From assembly GCA_902776975.1 (NCBI GenBank), contig CACYSI010000033.1, positions 1 through 36,672 on the forward strand: a stretch of 36,672 nt of DNA, written 5' to 3'. This stretch comes from an uncultured Ruminococcus sp. (lineage in GTDB: Bacteria; Bacillota; Clostridia; Oscillospirales; Acutalibacteraceae). The notes beneath the pieces are model-generated. The model had not been told where the DNA came from. It did not search any database and was given only the letters and a program-made list of their open reading frames with translations. Numbering within the stretch: position 1 is the first letter of the stretch; every line of letters starts with the position of its first letter. Below, piece by piece: positions 6,994 to 34,600 of this stretch. The translations under genes and the position numbers were made by a program.

Positions 6994-7605
6994 CTATAAC
7001 CCTTTATGGATCAATCTTGAAAGAGGCTTGTAGATGATCGCGACGACCACCGATACTATTATTCCTTTGATGAGGTTGAAGGGCAATACGCAGAACAGAC
7101 AGAAGGTGAAGGTGCTGTTTACCCACGGTATGATAGCCTTGCCCGCTTCTACGATCTGCTCTATGGGCATGAAGGCTGAGTACATCGGTATCATCACATA
7201 GGCGTTGAGGAACACACCTACGACAGCCATAACGAGGGTAGATACGATCATGCCGATAACAGCGCTCTTCTTAGTCTTTTTGCGCTTATAGATAATGCCT
7301 GCGGGTATCACCATGGCGCAACCTATGATGAAGTTGGCGAGGTCTCCGACAAAGCCCGTTGAGGTACCCTTTAAGATCAGCTTGATGATGATCTTGACAG
7401 CTTCGATGACGACTCCCTGTATGGGGCCGAAGGCGAAGGTGCCTATCATGACGGGTATCTCCGACAGATCGAGCTTATAGAACGACGGCGCGATGAAACC
7501 GAGCGGAAATTCTATGAGCATGAGCAGTCCCGAGAGAGCCCCGAGCATGGCGGTGGTGGTCAGCATACGCGTACGGTAAGCGCTGCTTTTGTCGGCGGTT
7601 GACAT
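6994..7605 (-). CDS. ribU: Riboflavin ECF transporter substrate-binding subunit RibU
   Basis: This 203-residue integral membrane protein belongs to the ECF S-component family, with about six hydrophobic segments (from LTTTAMLGALSGLLMLIEFP onward). The conserved LDLSEIPVMIGTFAFGP block matches RibU. It captures riboflavin outside the cell and works with the shared EcfA-EcfA'-EcfT module, which is not in this window. The frame is open further upstream, but the start at 7605 has AAGGAG 6 nt ahead, and the longer version would run into the riboswitch. A hairpin (TTGCGGC/GCCGCAA, 7617-7636) sits directly beside the ribosome binding site. The FMN riboswitch upstream fixes the ligand class strongly. 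Confidence 0.93.
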   Translation of the reverse strand: MSTADKSSAYRTRMLTTTAMLGALSGLLMLIEFPLGFIAPSFYKLDLSEIPVMIGTFAFGPIQGVVIEAVKIIIKLILKGTSTGFVGDLANFIIGCAMVIPAGIIYKRKKTKKSAVIGMIVSTLVMAVVGVFLNAYVMIPMYSAFMPIEQIVEAGKAIIPWVNSTFTFCLFCVLPFNLIKGIIVSVVVAIIYKPLSRLIHKGL

Positions 7606-7780
7606 TTTTTTCTCCTTTGCGGCTGTATCGCCGCAAGACATGATTTGAATTTTGGATCTACTACTAATTTCAATTAAAACGCTTAAACAAGATATTTGCG
7701 GAAAATTTCGCAGAGCAAGGCGGAGATCGCAGGCAGGCTGGCGCCTGTCAAGATCGACAAACATTATAATATAGATATTC

Positions 7781-7813
7781 AAAAAGCTCCGCAGGTTCGG
7801 GTACCTACGGAGC
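7781..7813 (-). terminator. Riboswitch-controlled terminator upstream of ribU
   Basis: Read leftward, an 11-bp stem (7803-7813 with 7786-7796, one G-U pair) is followed by five T. It lies 16 nt after the FMN riboswitch and before ribU, so it is probably the expression platform that stops transcription when FMN is bound. Confidence 0.82.
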
Positions 7814-7828
7814 GTTTGATCCAATCAC

Positions 7829-7964
7829 ATCTTCTCTCATCCGGACTCAGCTCAGAAGGCTCTGAACAATACCGTCGGTTACGGAATCTCACCGTATCAT
7901 GCGGCGTTTGACCGCCGCTCGCAGACTCTACTGCCGGTTGGGAATCTCACCCTACCCCGAAGAT
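7829..7964 (-). promoter_or_regulatory. FMN riboswitch (RFN element)
   Basis: Read on the minus strand, the conserved RFN blocks appear in order: ATCTTCGGGG, AGGGTGAGATTCCC, CCGGC with AGTCTGCGAGC, the variable arm, GGTGAGATTCCG with CCGACGG, and AGTCCGGATGAGAGAAGAT. The P1 stem pairs 7959-7964 with 7829-7834. It lies upstream of ribU with a terminator between, so FMN should reduce riboflavin uptake. Confidence 0.96.
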
Positions 7965-7990
7965 CTATTCAATTGTCTTTCGACACTATT

Positions 7991-8019
7991 ATATTAGCAC
8001 CGAGTATGTCCCGTGTCAA
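7991..8019 (-). promoter_or_regulatory. Promoter of the riboswitch-ribU transcript
   Basis: Leftward, a perfect TTGACA (8014-8019), a 17-bp spacer and TAATAT (7991-7996) lie just upstream of the riboswitch. Confidence 0.7.
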
Positions 8020-8055
8020 TACGATTTACAAAAATGTTTGTCGGATCGGGAATTC

Positions 8056-10116
8056 TCACTGGTTATAGATCTTGAAGGAGGTCAGCGCCATGATCTCGGT
8101 CTCGTGCTCGATCTCAGGGAAGATGAATTTGAGATCCAGCTTTTTGTCCGAGCCGATCACATCGGCGGGTATCAGGAAGTTGAGCCCGTTCATACGGATA
8201 TCAGTGCCTAAACGGTCGTTGAACACTTCTTCACCGTTGGCGAGCACTACGCAGCCTGTCTCTTCGTATATATTCAGTACGTTGAAGTACGCGTGCAGGT
8301 CTTCTATGTTCTCGGGTATCTCGTCGATGGGTATCTCCATCTCGGCTGTCGGCCCGCTGACTATAGTGCGCCAGCCGTTTGTATGACCGAAGCCCTGTTT
8401 GCAGTACATGACGGCTGTCTCGTCTTCGGTAAAGGTCAGCTCCGTACCGAGCTTGTAGTTGTCTATCCTGCCGCCGTTGATGTAGTAGGTGTTGATCAGC
8501 TTGAGGTCTTTCTCTCCTATAGCTTTAGAGTTGGTCTTATACGCCTCTATGCGCGACTCGGCGTTTTCGCCCGTGTTGAGGTAGAACAGCCTGCGGCGGT
8601 TCCAAGGCTGTTTGGCGGCGTCCGTAAAGCTGATTCCGGTACCGATATCCTTGTAGTCGTCGGTCACTGCAGAGGCGAGGGTGGCGGGCAGATCGAAGAG
8701 GCTGACGAGTGAAGGATCCAGCTTGTAGCCCTCGGTATAGCCTCTTTCTTTATAAAGCAGCAGAGGCAGCTGACCGTACTCGAGCTCTCCGCAGTCGGCG
8801 GTGATGATGATGCGCGCGTTCTTGTACTTGCCGGCGTCCTTGAGGTTTTGCAGCATATTTAGCACACAGTGAAAGTCGCCCTCGACCTGCTCCTTGAGCG
8901 AGGTGCCGTCGGGATCCTTCTCTCCCTTAGAGGTGAGGCGGTACGGACTGTCGGCGCCCTGCAGGTCGTATATCCTCACGGCGCGGTCATAGCTGTCGGA
9001 GTAGCTGAAGCCGCCCGCTTTGTCAAAGTCGGAGAAGAACTTGCTGTCGTTGTCTGAGCTGTAGGTGTTGTTGCTCTCGAAAGACGAGTAGTCGGCAAGA
9101 CTCATCCAGAAAAACTTTTTGAGGTAGTGCGGCATGGCGTTATACAGCGTATATCGGTATATCGTGCTGCCTATGACGCGATAAGCCGCGGCGTCCTGAG
9201 CGCGGTTGACGATATTGTCTACCTTGCGGACAGCGGCGTCGCCGAAGTACTTGTCGTCGGCAAAGATCCTTGTGTCTGTCTCGCTGCGTTTGAGTACGTC
9301 GAATACGTTATAGTTGTTCCAGGCTTTGTTTATGAACTCGGTGTATTTTGTATCCTTTTTGTATACATCGCCCGTCATCATGGACGGCAGAGACACCAGC
9401 GAGTCGGAGCCTGCCGCCAGGACGTTGGTGTACTCGGTAAAGCCGTTGAGGTAGCCTATCTCTTCGGCGTGCTCCTTTTTGTACTCTTTGTAGTATGAGG
9501 CGTCCATCTTGCCTAAGATGAAGACGAGTGTGTTGTCGTCCTCCGACAACTCATACATGCCGTCTACGGTCACCTCATGGCTGAGCTTTTCGAGAGTGTT
9601 CTGGTTTTGGTAGATGTTGAGCGAGAGGCTGCCTATCTGCATTATTACGATGAACGCCGCCGCGATCATCAGGATATGCCTCCACGAGTGCTTGAACACC
9701 ATGTACAGCGCGAAGGGGAGAGCTATGCAAGCCGCCCACATCGCCGAGTCGATGGCGCCGTAGGTGGTATAGTCCTTCCACGCTATCTGCGAGCCATCGA
9801 GCACACCCGAGCCGTAGCTGATGTTGAAAAAGCCGCACTGTATATACAGCCCAAGCGTCACGCCGAAGGTAAGACAGCACAGTATCTTGTGCACACCGCC
9901 TTTGACAAGCGATAATACCGTCGTAGCTATCAAGAAACCTGTTGCCGCGACAAGGGTAACGGGCAGCAGCAGCGAGTGAAAGCTGAACCACATTTCATCA
10001 TTACCGGTGATATACAGCGACAGGGGGCTGTAGACCAACAGAGTAAAGCACAAAAAAGCGCTCATGGTCGCGCCGAACGCTAAGCGGTGTTTGAATTCCA
10101 GATGTTTATCTTCCAT
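8056..10116 (-). CDS. Membrane sulfatase-fold protein, probably catalytically altered
   Basis: This 686-residue protein has about five N-terminal membrane segments (residues about 12-170) and an extracellular alkaline-phosphatase/sulfatase-fold domain, an architecture like that of lipoteichoic-acid synthases and phosphoglycerol or phosphoethanolamine transferases. The fold is recognised from DNTLVFILGKMDASYY (residues 195-209), LPSMMTG (about 245) and IIITADCGE (about 440). In active relatives the first block reads VD.FD and the last ADHGE. Here the first metal-binding Asp is replaced (Gly202) and the metal-binding His is Cys. The enzyme may have altered metal use or may be a non-catalytic envelope protein. 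The start has AGGAA ahead and a consensus promoter at 10172-10200. It is a single gene facing DUF951-prfA. Confidence 0.72.
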   Translation of the reverse strand: MEDKHLEFKHRLAFGATMSAFLCFTLLVYSPLSLYITGNDEMWFSFHSLLLPVTLVAATGFLIATTVLSLVKGGVHKILCCLTFGVTLGLYIQCGFFNISYGSGVLDGSQIAWKDYTTYGAIDSAMWAACIALPFALYMVFKHSWRHILMIAAAFIVIMQIGSLSLNIYQNQNTLEKLSHEVTVDGMYELSEDDNTLVFILGKMDASYYKEYKKEHAEEIGYLNGFTEYTNVLAAGSDSLVSLPSMMTGDVYKKDTKYTEFINKAWNNYNVFDVLKRSETDTRIFADDKYFGDAAVRKVDNIVNRAQDAAAYRVIGSTIYRYTLYNAMPHYLKKFFWMSLADYSSFESNNTYSSDNDSKFFSDFDKAGGFSYSDSYDRAVRIYDLQGADSPYRLTSKGEKDPDGTSLKEQVEGDFHCVLNMLQNLKDAGKYKNARIIITADCGELEYGQLPLLLYKERGYTEGYKLDPSLVSLFDLPATLASAVTDDYKDIGTGISFTDAAKQPWNRRRLFYLNTGENAESRIEAYKTNSKAIGEKDLKLINTYYINGGRIDNYKLGTELTFTEDETAVMYCKQGFGHTNGWRTIVSGPTAEMEIPIDEIPENIEDLHAYFNVLNIYEETGCVVLANGEEVFNDRLGTDIRMNGLNFLIPADVIGSDKKLDLKFIFPEIEHETEIMALTSFKIYNQ

Positions 10117-10171
10117 ATTATTCCTGCTTTATAAAATATGATATGATAATGTCTGCATTACATCACCCTAT

Positions 10172-10200
10172 ATTATAGCTCAAAAACTATATATAGTCAA
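10172..10200 (-). promoter_or_regulatory. Promoter of the sulfatase-fold gene
   Basis: Leftward, TTGACT (10195-10200) and a perfect TATAAT (10172-10177) are separated by 17 bp. Confidence 0.78.
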
Positions 10201-10247
10201 GAAAAACAGTAACTTCCGCAATATGTAGGATATCACCCCATAATAGA

Positions 10248-19967: not shown

Positions 19968-20114
19968 CGCCGAAGACGATCTCCTGCGTCCTTCCTGCGT
20001 CATTATCCGTCGTATAAAGCAGGCAGGATTAATCTGTCGGAGTTAGCGAGGATTTGCGATTTGAGCAGAACAACGGCTTATAAGTATATTGCTATTCTTG
20101 AAGTATCAAACTAA
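19968..20114 (+). pseudogene. C-terminal remnant of a serine recombinase
   Basis: A 48-codon open frame ends in TAA at 20112-20114 and has no start. It encodes YPSYKAGRINLSELARICD followed by LSRTTAYKYIAIL. This is the C-terminal helix-turn-helix of resolvase/invertase-type serine recombinases, whose consensus has S/T-x-ELA, then SR-T-x-Y-x-YI. The catalytic Ser domain is absent: a TAG lies directly upstream in frame and nothing similar is found before it. The remnant sits at the boundary to AT-rich DNA and probably marks an old mobile element. Its last bases overlap the end of the convergent gene. Confidence 0.65.
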
Positions 20115-20506
20115 CCGACGAGACTAATATTGTCTTTAACAGCTTGTAGATTTTCCTTGGCTTTGTGTTCGGGAACTATACCTTCTTTTGCTAACTTGAG
20201 CGTTGAATATTCAAATACCTTTAGATATTCTTCTCCTTCAAAGCTCAGCACCCCTCTGTAAGCACACACTTTTCCTGATTCAAGAATATCTCCACTAAAA
20301 TTTGAAGCAAAAGTGATAGCCCATATTCTTGGAGTGTAGGGATAATTCTCAAAGAAAGATACTGCTTTATCTCCCTGCTTTTTCACCAAGTTATTAGCAG
20401 TTGAAGCGATTTTTTCCCAAACAGAAGATGAACATTCATTTTTCATTTCAATAAAGGAAGCGTCAATTTGTTTAAATAAGTCTTTTTTCTTGGATTGAAA
20501 GAACAC
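20111..20506 (-). CDS. AT-rich orphan protein, 131 residues
   Basis: This predicted soluble protein has no signal peptide or membrane segment. The sequence is mixed alpha/beta: a Lys-rich N-terminus (QSKKKDLFKQI), a central WAITFASNFSGDIL strand-like block, then YLKVFEYSTLKLAKEGIVPE. I recognise no family. The start is GTG at 20506 with GGAGG 7 nt ahead, which supports a real gene. Base composition is much more AT-rich than the flanking serA or ClC genes, and a recombinase remnant adjoins it. It may be acquired cargo, for example an immunity-type protein, but that is only context. Confidence 0.6.
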   Translation of the reverse strand: MFFQSKKKDLFKQIDASFIEMKNECSSSVWEKIASTANNLVKKQGDKAVSFFENYPYTPRIWAITFASNFSGDILESGKVCAYRGVLSFEGEEYLKVFEYSTLKLAKEGIVPEHKAKENLQAVKDNISLVG

Positions 20507-20599
20507 AGCTTAACCTCCATAATTATTTATAATATAATAATATCATATCAATTATCCGTTTTCAATCCTAAACTCTATGAATCCGCTTTAGATTATCTA

Positions 20600-21436
20600 T
20601 TAATACTCATAGAAATCAATCGAGCTTACAGTATTATCCTCATATCTACCATAATAAGATTTCGATAATTGATTATCTTTATTATACTCAAATTTCTCGT
20701 AACTGAAAGGCTTTTCTTCACCAGCAATATAATGCTCAGTTTTAGTCAACAGATTATTCGAATCATATAAATAGTCATCATAATAGTAATTAAGGTGAAC
20801 AGAATCAAAAACTTCTTCATCAGCTAAATCTTCTGAAAAATCTGAACCGCTAAATGCATTTTTCCAGTCTATATCATAATAATCAATTTCAATATGTGTT
20901 TCTCTTGAAATCTTGCCATCTGAACGATAACTATACTGATATAACTCCGAAGAACTTAAAAACTCAGTTATAACTCTACCTTGATCGTCATATAAACAAT
21001 CTCCATCATATTTCGAAAAAGGCTTACGATATATCATAGTATCTCCATTAGTGTTTTCACTAGGCAGTGATTCGCTTTGATAATCGTCAGTATAGATGTA
21101 TCTTTTAGTGGTATCGTTATTATTCAAAAGCTCCTCTATAACTTGATCATTATTATTATACCAAATAATATCTGGTTTTTCGTTTTTGTATAAGAATCGA
21201 TAAACAACATAGCTTACATTTTTAGCTATGATTTCACTTGGTTTAACTTTTCTTGCTTCTTTTAAACAGTCCTCAAAATAATCACCGTTGCTTAAATCAT
21301 CAACTGTGAAATGGATGATATTGTTATTTTTATCTATTGAAGCCATATCGTTTGATTTAGAGGGAGACGATACATTACACCCGGATAGAGATATTATTAC
21401 AAAAAGAATAATTAATACTTTTACTGCCGTTTTCAT
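20600..21436 (-). CDS. AT-rich lipoprotein with YD-like strands
   Basis: This 278-residue lipoprotein has a signal peptide and the lipobox LSGC (Cys20). The mature part is rich in Tyr, Asp, Asn and Ser and contains several strands resembling YD repeats: CLYDDQGRVITEF, YSYRSDGKISRE, YDSNNLLTKTEHY and FEYNKDNQLSKSYY. Such strands occur in RHS/YD proteins and in some immunity or surface lipoproteins. It is exported and membrane-anchored; the function is unknown. AGGAGG lies upstream of the ATG, and a promoter with an overlapping palindrome is at 21480-21529. It is strongly AT-rich like its downstream neighbour and may be cotranscribed with it (94 bp gap). Confidence 0.72.
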   Translation of the reverse strand: MKTAVKVLIILFVIISLSGCNVSSPSKSNDMASIDKNNNIIHFTVDDLSNGDYFEDCLKEARKVKPSEIIAKNVSYVVYRFLYKNEKPDIIWYNNNDQVIEELLNNNDTTKRYIYTDDYQSESLPSENTNGDTMIYRKPFSKYDGDCLYDDQGRVITEFLSSSELYQYSYRSDGKISRETHIEIDYYDIDWKNAFSGSDFSEDLADEEVFDSVHLNYYYDDYLYDSNNLLTKTEHYIAGEEKPFSYEKFEYNKDNQLSKSYYGRYEDNTVSSIDFYEY

Positions 21437-25794: not shown

Positions 25795-25965
25795 CCTCCT
25801 TTAAATTTCGTATATCCGGCAAAATACCGTCGGGTAATCTTTACGGACGTGGTGGATAAAGCGCTCGCGCAAATATGTGAGGGAATAGAGCTAAGGTATG
25901 AGTGGATAAGATTCTTAGAAATAGGAACAGATATGTTCTGCGTGCAAAAAGAAAACCGGAGATAG
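25795..25965 (+). pseudogene. IS200/IS605-type transposase (TnpA) remnant
   Basis: A 56-codon frame without a start encodes FVYPAKYRRVIFTDVVDKAL, followed by ICEGIELRYEWIRFLEIGTD. This matches the central part of IS200-type Y1 transposases (P-KYRR-VF, then RYE-FLEIGTD), where DHVHFL, the HUH metal motif, should follow directly. Here that motif is destroyed (MFCVQ), and the N-terminal part and catalytic Tyr are missing. It is inactive debris in the 490-bp gap between the GH3 gene and the chimeric gene. Confidence 0.65.
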
Positions 25966-26038
25966 GGGAGTGACAGCATTAGGCATTCTCGGATTAATCG
26001 GAGGCGGTATTTGGACAGTAGTAAAAATCTTTACTTGA
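25925..26038 (+). pseudogene. Tail of a small zinc-ribbon membrane protein
   Basis: In another frame, overlapping the end of the transposase remnant, 37 codons encode ICSACKKKTGDRGVTALGIL followed by a Gly-rich hydrophobic segment (GLIGGGIWTVVKIFT) and TGA. A CxxC knuckle next to KKTGD and one membrane segment is typical of the end of short zinc-ribbon/transmembrane proteins. The first knuckle is missing. A GTG at 25970 could start a 22-residue hydrophobic peptide. Probably debris. Confidence 0.35.
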
Positions 26039-26080
26039 GTATATCAGTGAAATGGTAAAAGTCGAGATTAGGTGATAGTT

Positions 26081-27340
26081 ATGTATAGCGTTGATCAGAA
26101 GCAGTTTAGCCATGGTCTTGAAATTTTTATTGAAAAAGCTATTTCAGAACAACAGAAAAAATTTGGTACATCGGAACTGTCTTTTTCAAAAGGCTATTTG
26201 TATGAGCAAGAAGGATACAAGTATCAATTGTTCAATAAAGCACATATTCTTCTCGATGCCGAGTCATGGAAGAGAAGCGATGTCGGAACTGGCAGAATCA
26301 TTGAAAAAGTGATAGCGACTTTCCATGTCAAAGCTGGAGATCAAGTACAAAATATAATTGACTGGCGTGACGTTGAGAGAGCAGAAGAAATCTTCTCGAA
26401 ACGACTCAAAGAATCGGAGATTATGTTATTCAATCTGTTTTGCGAAGGAGATGAAGAAGAGTCGTTCGGTTCTGCAATTGAGTTACTTGGGCAGTGCTAT
26501 GCAGTTATTACATACTTGTTCTTTCTAAAAGACTGTGAAAAATATGTACCTGTAAGAACGCGTCACTTTAAAGAGCAGTTCGCAAAGCTCGGGATATCTA
26601 CTGCCGCCCTTGATGAATGTACATGGAGAAACTATCAGGAATTTAATGAGATTGTAACCTGGGTAAAAAATGCAATAGCATCATACTTCCCAAAAGTAAG
26701 CCTTCTCGATGCACATTCCTTTATATGGATGATGTGGTTGTTTGATGAAGAATCTGTTTTGTTATCGCCAAAGATTGGTAGCCCAAAGTGGTTTTATGAT
26801 AAAGCACAAAATGTGACGATATACTGTTACTTCGGCTCAGCGGCTCATATGTACGCTAAGGCTAAAGAGATCCCGTATGAGCTGTTTGACAAAAGAAACA
26901 TAGCCGAAGCCTCCGCCGTGCCGGAATATACTGTGACGGGATTCAACAGAAAAGCACATACTCCCTCCGTCAGCATAACCTACGGCGAAGATGTGCTGCC
27001 GGAAAACACGGATTTTACGCTGGAGTATACAAACAACACCGAGGCCGGTACGGCAACGATCACTGTCACGGGATGCGGCGATTATAAAGGCGCTCAGATC
27101 TTAGAGTTCGCGATCAAAAACATCCTCGGCGACGCTGACGGCGACGGATCGGTCGACGCCGTCGACGTTACCGTTATCCTGCGGTATCTGGTAAGGATCA
27201 AAGTGAACGATCCCGATAGGGTGGCTCTCGCTGGTAATGTAACGCGCAGCGGTGTGTTGGATATTACAGACGCTACCTTCGTCCGGCGCTGGATAGTCGG
27301 CGTCGATATACCTTATATGATAGACGTCTTCATGGACTGA
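26081..27340 (+). CDS. Chimeric protein: intracellular-type N-terminus fused to Ig-like/dockerin C-terminus
   Basis: This is a 419-residue frame from ATG 26081 (AGGTG ahead; GTG 26072 is an alternative). Residues 1 to about 230 form a soluble alpha-helical domain without signal peptide, ending in SLLDAHSFIWMMWLFDEE. That type of block occurs before the nuclease domain in some HNH or McrB-like defence proteins. From about residue 240 the content changes: NVTIYCYFGSAAHMYAKAKE resembles the end of BspA-like leucine-rich surface proteins, TLEYTNNTEAGTATITVTGC an Ig-like bacterial repeat, and residues about 346-412 a dockerin (DADGDGSVDAVDVT, SGVLDITDAT). Codon use shifts from AT-rich to GC-rich at about 26.78-26.85 kb. 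A secreted dockerin without a signal peptide should not function outside the cell, so the gene looks like an accidental in-frame fusion. Confidence 0.7.
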   Translation: MYSVDQKQFSHGLEIFIEKAISEQQKKFGTSELSFSKGYLYEQEGYKYQLFNKAHILLDAESWKRSDVGTGRIIEKVIATFHVKAGDQVQNIIDWRDVERAEEIFSKRLKESEIMLFNLFCEGDEEESFGSAIELLGQCYAVITYLFFLKDCEKYVPVRTRHFKEQFAKLGISTAALDECTWRNYQEFNEIVTWVKNAIASYFPKVSLLDAHSFIWMMWLFDEESVLLSPKIGSPKWFYDKAQNVTIYCYFGSAAHMYAKAKEIPYELFDKRNIAEASAVPEYTVTGFNRKAHTPSVSITYGEDVLPENTDFTLEYTNNTEAGTATITVTGCGDYKGAQILEFAIKNILGDADGDGSVDAVDVTVILRYLVRIKVNDPDRVALAGNVTRSGVLDITDATFVRRWIVGVDIPYMIDVFMD

Positions 27341-27414: not shown

Positions 27415-27458
27415 AAAACGGGCATGGATTTCTCGATCTTGAGAGCTATGCCCGTTTT
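27415..27458 (+). terminator. Terminator after the chimeric dockerin gene
   Basis: An 11-bp stem, AAAACGGGCAT with ATGCCCGTTTT, has an inner TCTCGATCTTGAGA palindrome in its loop. The T tract is part of the stem. The rest of the 330-bp gap contains the next promoter and a 100-nt leader. Confidence 0.72.
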
Positions 27459-27539
27459 GCTTATCAAGGCGTCACGTTCAGGCGTTCTGTACCGACGGTA
27501 TATGTTAATACAAATATTTATTTTGTTTAGCTGAAACAC

Positions 27540-31686: not shown

Positions 31687-34600
31687 ATGAAGACTATGCT
31701 GCGCGCAGTTATAAAAAAGCATATCAAGCTGTTGATATCGGTCACGCTGATCGCGTCACTCGGCTTTTCGCTCTCATGGGGTCTGTCCGGCGGATACGTC
31801 TCCCTTGAGAGATCTCTGCGCGACTACGTGGAGAAATATCACTATCCCGACGTCTGTATCACGACCGAGATCACCACGTCCGACGACGCGGACAGCCTGC
31901 TCGCTATAGACGGAGTCCAAGGCTGTGATACCCGGCTTTTCGCCGATACGCTGATGAAAACCTCCGACGAGGATTACTTTTCCGTAAGAGTATTCTCCTA
32001 CACCGACAGCGAGAGGCAGACCTTCTGCCGTTGGTCAGAGTCGGACGGCGGCGACGGCGTGTTGATCGAGTATAATTTTGCCGAGAACAACGGTATAAGC
32101 GCCGGTGATACGGTATCGTTCAGAGTGCGTGACGAATACCGCGACTACACGGTAAGCGCTGTCATCTCGCGTCCCGAGACCCTCTCAGCGAAGGTCTCCG
32201 ATAACGCGTGGGGTCTGAACTATGATTTCGGCTATATCTACGCCCCCGCCGTCCTGCTCGCCGAAGAGTTTGAGAAGGACTATCGCGATAACAAGGCACA
32301 GCTGGACGAGAAGTCCGACGAGCTTTCGGCGCAGAAAAATTCCGCGCAAAAGCTGCTGGATGAAAAAGAAGATCAGCTCATGCAGGCTAAAAAACTGCTG
32401 AGCGAAATGCGCGAGGAATATCTCAGCTCCTCAGTCGAAGCAGAGAGCGCGATCGAAGAGCTCAACAAAACGAAAGATGAGCTTCTCTCGTCCGAACAGG
32501 AGTTGGAAGAAAAAAAGGCCGAGCTCGCCGCCGCTTATGAAACGGCGGCTTCGACCGTTGAGGAGCTGAGCTCTAAGCTCGATCTGCTCACCCGCGCAAA
32601 AGAAGGTCTCGATGAGATCAACGCAGCCGAAAAAGAGCTGAAGTCCGCCGGGGACAGACTGCGCTCCGACAGCGTACAGCGACTTATCAGTCTGCTGTCC
32701 GATCTGCCTGACAGCGCAAAAATGTCAGAGCTGATCAGCGGCGCCGAGGAACTCTCGGACTACCTTGATCAGATGGATAAGATCGGCTTTCACTATGATC
32801 TATCCGCGCCGATCGGCTTTCTGGAAAAGACGCTTAATGACTTTGAGGCGCAGATGGATGCCGACTACGCGTATCTCAGTTCACATAAGGTCGAAGCTAT
32901 GATCGCATCGTCGGAGGCGTTCTCCCCCACCGATGCGGGCTACAGCGAACTTAATGCTGTTCTCAGACGGTACAGCGCCGTGAGCGTCACTGACGCGGCG
33001 AGTCTCAAGTCGGCGTATCAGACGGCATTGTCCCGCCTGACCGCGCTGCGAGACCTGGCGCGTAGGCCGAGTATACGGCAGACTCTGGATCTGCTCAAAA
33101 GCATAGAGACCGACCGCTCCGCGAAAGAACTGCTGAACAGTGTCCTGAGCGCAGAAAACGAGCTGCGCGGTCTGTCGGAGGGCGCCTCCCTTGAACAGAT
33201 GACAGCCAAAGACGTGAAGCAGCTGTACACTCAGGCGCTGGAACAAACAGACGAAGCGCTCGATACGCTGAGCAAGAGCAGAGGATCCGTCATCAAAGAG
33301 CTGAGCGCGAACGGTATCGGCGAGAGCGATCTGCCCGGAACGCTTACACAGTTGAGCGACGGTATCGCCTCCGCCCGGAGCGCTTACGCCGAACTTAAAG
33401 ACGCAAGCGTGGAGTTAGACGAGGGCATAACCGATATCAAGGACGGGATCGCCGAGATAGACGATGGGATCAGCGAGATAGAAGGCAAGCTCAGCGACGG
33501 ACAGTCACAGCTCAACTCAGTCGAAAATGAGATCGCCGGCGGTGAGAGCAAGCTCTCAGAGTCCGCAAAAGAAATGCGGGTCTTCACCGATTTGGAAGAC
33601 GAGCTTGAACGCGCCTATAAAAAGCTCGGAGACAGCGAGGGCTACGACCGCCTTTGCAACCAATTTCTGTTGTATCTCGAAGATGACGCTGACGCTGACA
33701 GAGTTTTGGAGCAAGCTCGCGCTGCGCTGAGCGACTCCGCTGTAAAAAGCGGTTATACCTACCGACAATCACCCGTCAAAAAAAGGATCGACAACAACCT
33801 CAACCCTATGTCCGCCATGATGTCGATGCTGCCGGCTATCTTCTTCGGGATCGTGCTTATCGTCGTTTTTCTTTTCATGTCGATGATCATCAGGCAGAGC
33901 CGCAGAGACATCGGGATACTGATGGCTCTGGGTATCGGCAAGGCTTCTGTCCGCGGGATGTTCTGCGTTGTCGCCGCGGGCGTAGCGCTCGGCGGTATCA
34001 TCCTCGGCAGCGGGATCGGACTTGCTGTTCGGGGATATGTCGGCGGCTATTTCAAGAGCTTCTTCCCACTGCCTGAATTCACCTATCTCCCGGATATCGG
34101 CGGATTTGCCGTCGGAGCACTCGCTACCTTCGGAGTGTGTGTAACGGCTACGCTGATAGGTACGGTAATGATCGAGCGCATAACGCCGAAAGAAGCGATG
34201 TCGCGCCCCGTACAGGCGGATATCAGCGTCCCCGCTTTCTTGAACCGCTTATTGAGCAAAGCCTCTCCGATGCTGAAATTCAACCTTACTTCTCTTTTTC
34301 GAAACAAGGGCAGATTTCTCTTTTCCACGATATGCGTCTCAACGTCCGTGATGATGATCTTCACCTCAGTCTCCTTCATCGCTTCAAAAAACCATGTGAT
34401 ACACCAAACCTTTGATGAAAGGATACGTTACGACTGTCAGATATTCTTCGAGAATGATCCATCGGACGATCTGCTCAGTGAGATAGAAGCGATAGAGGGC
34501 GTGAGCGAAGCCGAAAAGGTGCTGATATATGATATCGCTGTTTCATCTGACAAAGGCTCTGAGCAAACGACCGTATATGCGATCGCTCCCGAAAACAGGA

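Follow-up and report, generated by a model that had tools for sequence, protein, structure and literature searches.

The reading frame at positions 26081–27340 of an uncultured Ruminococcus sp. is a gene chimera, in which the N-terminal domain of an intracellular, restriction-type protein is joined in frame to the end of a secreted protein with a leucine-rich repeat cap and a dockerin. Most probably, it is the relic of a rearrangement whose frame remained open by accident. The window, i.e., the whole stretch of DNA analyzed (36,672 nucleotides), is C33 (CACYSI010000033.1), one of the 65 contigs that make up a 2.14-Mb draft genome. A chimera of a defence-type N-terminus with a secreted dockerin C-terminus had been proposed in an earlier sequence-only reading of the window, and the two-part frame described there was confirmed in nearly every detail.

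The two-part frame and its joint

The chimeric frame runs on the plus strand from an ATG at 26081 to a TGA at 27340 and encodes 419 amino acids without internal stops. The features of the frame and its surroundings are listed below, where L042 and L046 are two relatives of the tail from the same genus.

25805–25933, plus strand: transposase gene scrap with both ends missing, 91–93% DNA identity to longer copies; in-frame read PAKYRRVIFTDVVDKALAQICEGIELRYEWIRFLEIGTD
25928–26038, plus strand: 3′ end of a small gene (CSAC and a hydrophobic stretch), directly after the transposase scrap
26070–26075, plus strand: Shine–Dalgarno-like AGGTGA, 5 bases ahead of the ATG at 26081, as judged from the sequence
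26081–26740, plus strand: restriction-associated N-terminal domain, residues 1–220, defined by homologues; homology ends at residue 220 and the model is all helical
26741–26791, plus strand: joint or linker of uncertain parentage, residues 221–237; family identity 0.05–0.06, pLDDT below 50 from residue 225, GC3 0.389
26792–26890, plus strand: cap that closes a BspA-type leucine-rich repeat, residues 238–270, aligned with L042 and L046; NVTI.C...SAA motif
26891–27124, plus strand: putative Ig-like-repeat region
27125–27289, plus strand: type I dockerin, PF00404 at 25.9 bits; changed in the second calcium loop and at both Q positions
27290–27340, plus strand: last residues and stop codon of the chimera, lined up with the C-termini of L042 and L046
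27458, no strand: left edge of a shared segment 3′ of the chimera; the match starts at 27458 for L030 and at 27506 for L029 and L031, with 99.2–99.5% identity

Identity to the family of N-domain relatives falls from 0.54 at residues 211–220 to 0.05 at residues 221–230, and the tail aligns with its relatives from residue 238 on or, by a stricter view, from the NVTI motif at residue 244. The joint is thus placed within 26741–26810. The sequence-only reading had put it at 26.78–26.85 kb; the frame is indeed open through the joint. GC3, followed along the gene as that reading had proposed, is 0.361 for the N-terminal part (26081–26737), 0.389 for 26738–26791 and 0.599 for the tail (26792–27337), in agreement with an AT-rich first part and a GC-rich rest. 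The best single change-point lies at 26813 (2-unit support, 26804–26963) and was equalled in none of 2000 permutations. Since 23 of the 25 other window frames taken as genes have GC3 of 0.55–0.74 (two are at 0.23–0.30), the tail falls inside the range of its neighbors and the N-terminal part outside it. The two low values belong to AT-rich frames at 20111–21436 on the minus strand (GC 0.30–0.35, GC3 0.23–0.30 versus a median of 0.67 for the 25 frames), which are likely foreign.

Past position 26738, the joined frame is open for 200 codons, whereas the other two frames stop after 25 codons and 1 codon; an open chimera therefore needs only the right register. A close donor of either half was not found in the own genome.

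A signal-peptide-like start is absent from the window protein, as had been noted from the sequence: by hydropathy only, the maximal 12-residue mean in the first 45 residues is 0.55. The same measure gave 2.95 and 2.69 for the two tail relatives and 2.98 for the neighboring GH3-dockerin gene. Thus, compared with three secreted-type proteins at 2.69–2.98, no secretion signal was found on the window's dockerin protein.

The N-terminal domain and its relatives

HNH and other nuclease-type proteins carry a homologue of residues 1–220 at their N-terminus, which bears out the resemblance to intracellular nuclease or defence proteins suggested earlier. Relatives found by tblastn with the window as the sole query were 31–36% identical, and the nearest intact relative, L076 (Oscillospiraceae HAN075), is 41% identical and has an HNH-type end. 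The window domain keeps 29 of the 31 near-invariant positions, i.e., those conserved in at least 95% of the other alignment rows. Its AlphaFold2 model has a pLDDT of 92.9 and a pTM of 0.88; the last helix ends at residue 221, and pLDDT is below 50 at residues 225–237. To judge from the alignment and the model, the domain shows no sign of decay.

No above-cut-off match to residues 1–220 was obtained in Pfam, NCBIfam or PADLOC; DUF58, with an E-value of 0.043 in Pfam, did not reach the cut-off. The fold matched no PDB or viral structure at E ≤ 0.001, and the sequence retrieved nothing better than E 0.23 from the PDB. DNA glycosylases were among the weak best folds, with TM of about 0.3, and were not usable.

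Pfam analysis of 28 proteins (the window protein and 27 relatives) revealed HNH_2 in nine, NOV_C in six and HNH in four, the sets overlapping in two HNH proteins that match HNH_2 too. It follows that 8 or more of the 27 relatives lack a named nuclease-type family at the C-terminus. The partner of the N-domain varies between HNH, HNH_2, NOV_C and unclassified ends. In the whole window protein, neither HNH nor NOV_C was detected in Pfam, NCBIfam or PADLOC, i.e., the nuclease-type C-terminal domain is absent. In the five relatives for which PADLOC hits came with positions, the matches fell on the C-terminal domains with two exceptions, a weak ZorE model with its best stretch at 165–212 of L012 and an HNH model starting from residue 206 of L078.

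The 48 relative loci correspond to 47 distinct ones (L010 and L097 are the same protein), and 42 loci are from named genomes. Within the genus, the N-domain is present in 1 of 161 genomes, the own genome being the one. Among 97 other near genomes, G074 alone has a relative; the counts are 4 of 394 for genomes of the order (including the own genome and G074, hence two further ones) and 1 of 397 for other genomes of a phylum sample, and these samples overlap. A further relative is encoded on a Paracoccus seriniphilus plasmid (WP_218822628.1). A viral origin was rejected, as pattern scans and an alignment-based scan of viral contigs yielded no relative. One record named Bacteriophage sp. (L012, MT836682.1) does carry an N-domain relative; its flanks read as bacterial, with frames that we take to be a ClpB end, a LysR-type regulator, a HAD hydrolase, DegV and a glycogen branching enzyme.

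Type I/III restriction or DNA methylase genes were detected by tblastn (E ≤ 1e-10) at 19 of the 48 relative loci and at 17 of the 35 loci of at least 7 kb. Because the query proteins were taken from 6 of the 19 positive loci, the corresponding figure for the remaining loci is 13 of 42. The same search found none in three control loci of ~12 kb and none in the window. According to Pfam, HsdR, HsdM and HsdS domains are encoded upstream of the N-domain gene in L101 (with one further frame in between), a type III-like gene is located near it in L079 and a DNA methylase in L111. The N-domain gene of the Paracoccus plasmid comes after annotated type I R, M and S genes. In L076, the N-domain/HNH gene is directly followed by a NACHT-type gene (7129–10233), with PF22729 (NCH3) above cut-off and PF05729 (NACHT) just below; the surrounding frames are presumably resolvase- and relaxase-like.

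The N-domain is thus a candidate for a new restriction-associated family of ~220 residues, helical and as yet without a name. By record titles, it precedes several nuclease-type domains near restriction genes in widely separated phyla, and it is a more useful by-product of this work than the chimera itself. A separate observation concerns L075 of genome G896, an N-domain frame that stops right after a DTHSLLW block and is followed by short repeats and then by a frame that we assume to be integrase-like; from its sequence, this is perhaps an independent truncation at the same boundary as in the window.

Full-length homologues with the two-part architecture in unrelated species, which according to the sequence-only reading would indicate an established family, were looked for and not found. 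None of the 27 relatives scanned with Pfam carries a dockerin. Among the other 20 distinct relatives, none was seen in the 19 tails read (up to the first 170 residues), and L117 runs off its contig. An established two-part family was accordingly rejected, there being no second N-domain-dockerin case among the 47 distinct loci. A limited paper collection contained neither an HNH endonuclease-dockerin gene chimera nor a paper on BspA-type leucine-rich repeats with a dockerin in Ruminococcus.

The tail and its surroundings

Residues 238–419 align with small proteins of the genus and are 44% identical to L042; the extracellular character of this part (a BspA-like end and a dockerin) had been recognized from the sequence alone and is upheld by this alignment. 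L042 (a 309-residue frame) and L046 (385 residues) consist of a hydrophobic start, BspA-type repeats (LRR_5), an Ig-like region and a dockerin, whose Pfam score is 18.3 bits (below cut-off) in L042 and 24.2 in L046. Four more open frames of 309–349 residues, known as matches only, match the tail similarly. Pfam found no LRR_5 repeats in the window protein, and the cap that follows the last repeat is their sole remnant. The stretch 26891–27124, which we take to be Ig-like, gave weak sub-cut-off Pfam matches only (Flavodoxin_1, Lipoprotein_17, Rib). Of 150 genomes of the genus, 46 have matches to the region 26786–27124 at E ≤ 1e-6, the own genome counted. In the full-length model, the tail is of low confidence; the alignment held no tail relatives, so the model is uninformative on this part. 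In an account of Ruminococcus flavefaciens FD-1 (PMC2930009), a "SIGN-LRR-Doc" type is listed and most proteins with complete dockerins are said to have a signal peptide.

The own genome contains 37 BspA-type repeat matches (several per gene) and 67 dockerin matches, including that of the window; ordered by Pfam score, the latter comes 58th, with weaker ones below it. It scores 22.1 bits on the whole chimera and 24.5 on the tail alone, with a cut-off of 22.9. The first calcium loop is canonical; the second has N, T and S at positions 1, 3 and 5, and L and R stand where Q is usual in the two repeats. For comparison, 65 of the 66 other matches were taken, one short partial match being left out; the best rows of L161 and L172 were neighboring dockerins already counted, leaving 62 distinct rows, 3 of them without a repeat. 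N at position 1 and T at position 3 of the second loop occur in none of the 62. At six key positions, which were picked after the alignment was viewed, the window dockerin deviates four times, and the 59 other complete dockerins deviate at none (35), one (15) or two (9). D at position 1 of the second loop is also missing in L176, L179, L195 and L198.

Both pieces of debris that the sequence-only reading had pointed out just upstream of the chimera are present. The transposase scrap at 25805–25933, presumably of the IS200/IS605 type, is 91–93% identical to parts of longer copies located near contig ends in three other genus genomes, one of these copies being itself cut by the contig end. The gene end at 25928–26038, a putative zinc-ribbon scrap, comprises about 36–37 residues with one CxxC and a hydrophobic stretch; its match, found in 1 of 149 other genus genomes, is a 64-aa frame with 59% identity over 32 residues.

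On the other side, DNA from 27458 to at least 33370 is 99.2–99.5% identical to that of three other species of the genus (G037, G044, G058). The comparison covered 4.1–5.9 kb and ended with the compared stretches, the far end at 33370 coming from G058 alone. To the left of the chimera, the GH3 gene (23.5–25.6 kb) was searched against five relatives and has counterparts of 72–76% identity in three of them, and two of these three genomes also carry the near-identical right segment. Upstream of the shared segment, G037 and G044 have DNA that differs from the window (in G044, we take the frames there to be relaxase- and recombinase-like), and the G058 contig starts 79 bases before the shared stretch. 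The segment beginning at 27458 points to a recent exchange between species; mis-binning is less likely. Thus, the chimera is surrounded by truncated pieces, lies between intact genes and borders on a segment that was probably exchanged.

Origin of the chimera and comparison with known systems

One parent would be a horizontally acquired restriction-type gene composed of the N-domain and a C-terminal nuclease-type domain, and the other a host-kind gene for a small secreted LRR/Ig-like/dockerin protein. An illegitimate rearrangement in the variable interval between two intact genes would have cut and joined them within 26741–26810, by the simplest route through one deletion that took the nuclease domain from one side and the signal peptide and repeats from the other. 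The join fell in the tail's register, a one-in-three chance, the two other registers leading to an early stop; in that register, the frame is open to the dockerin's own stop. If made, the product would stay in the cytoplasm, its N-domain able to fold and its dockerin idle, and would probably have no function.

Such a relic is favored by several facts. Each parent lacks an essential part (the nuclease domain, or the signal peptide and repeats); homology to both ends, and GC3 shifts, at the joint; the dockerin has drifted at 4 of 6 positions, against 0–2 in 59 others; the transposase scrap, the gene-end scrap and the shared-segment edge at 27458 surround the chimera; and the N-domain occurs in 1 of 161 genus genomes, with no dockerin-bearing N-domain found elsewhere. 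Counted against it are the undecayed N-domain (29 of 31 positions) with its confident model, the stop-free 419-codon frame and the good ribosome-binding sequence. In the dockerin, the first loop is canonical, the 22.1 bits are no worse than the 18.3 of L042, the rank is 58th of 67 and the missing D at position 1 of the second loop is shared with four other own-genome dockerins. All this would be compatible with a join of young age or with a tail that had begun to drift before the N-domain came in, and none of it proves function. Of the "fresh in-frame recombination product" proposed earlier, the in-frame joining is supported and "fresh" is not shown: the dockerin has drifted beyond the 59 compared, and neither half yielded a close relative by which to date the join.

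The conserved N-domain and its confident model, together with the ribosome-binding sequence, could also be expected of a working cytoplasmic protein, in which the N-domain still acts (e.g., by binding to a restriction complex or to DNA), with a tail that does no harm or is even of use. The change of partner domains between relatives and the stand-alone frame L075 in G896 would suit such a protein as well. We nevertheless regard it as unlikely, because a second dockerin-bearing case was not found, tblastn revealed no restriction gene in the window, the dockerin has drifted and L075 looks truncated as well. It is very unlikely that the N-domain moves about and repeatedly acquires other C-terminal partners, of which the dockerin tail would be a new one expressed inside the cell.

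There is a small chance that assembly or binning merged unrelated sequences at about 26.8 kb or made the contig a mosaic at 27458: the draft genome comprises 65 contigs, there is a jump in composition at the joint and other species share the right flank at 99% identity, which mis-binning can give. An artefact would, however, have had to hit the correct frame, with a chance of one in three, as well as the vicinity of a domain boundary, and no repeated DNA was found over the joint in 100 genus genomes, with three candidates scored per genome. The second possibility raised by the sequence-only reading, a real new use in which the dockerin brings a defence-type domain to an intracellular cohesin-like partner, is hardly credible. 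Beyond the open frame and a still recognizable dockerin nothing speaks for it; the second calcium loop and both Q positions are altered, no recurrence was found, the setting is one of gene scraps and free calcium is scarce in the cytoplasm.

If the chimera is a rearrangement relic, as we think, it shows how two broken genes that meet by chance would be annotated automatically as an intracellular "dockerin protein", and tallies of odd dockerin architectures should allow for such joins.

Among known proteins, the HNH-type ones with the N-domain (L076, L012, L097/L010 and WP_218822628.1) share residues 1–220 with the window at up to 41% identity (L076). They continue into a nuclease-type or other domain, whereas the window continues into the LRR cap, the Ig-like region and the dockerin. 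Restriction-modification neighbors are frequent but not universal among N-domain relatives (19 of 48 loci), and the window has none. Residues 238–419 are shared with the small secreted LRR-dockerin proteins of the genus, L042 and L046; the SIGN-LRR-Doc type is listed for Ruminococcus flavefaciens FD-1 (PMC2930009). Compared with L042 and L046, the window protein is without the hydrophobic start and the repeats, and its second calcium loop is more altered.

Gene fragments fused at deletion joints are ordinary in bacterial genomes. The window resembles such fusions in that two truncated genes stand in line, open by chance and near transposase scraps. It differs from them in being cut at a domain boundary, and therefore looks like a designed two-part protein.
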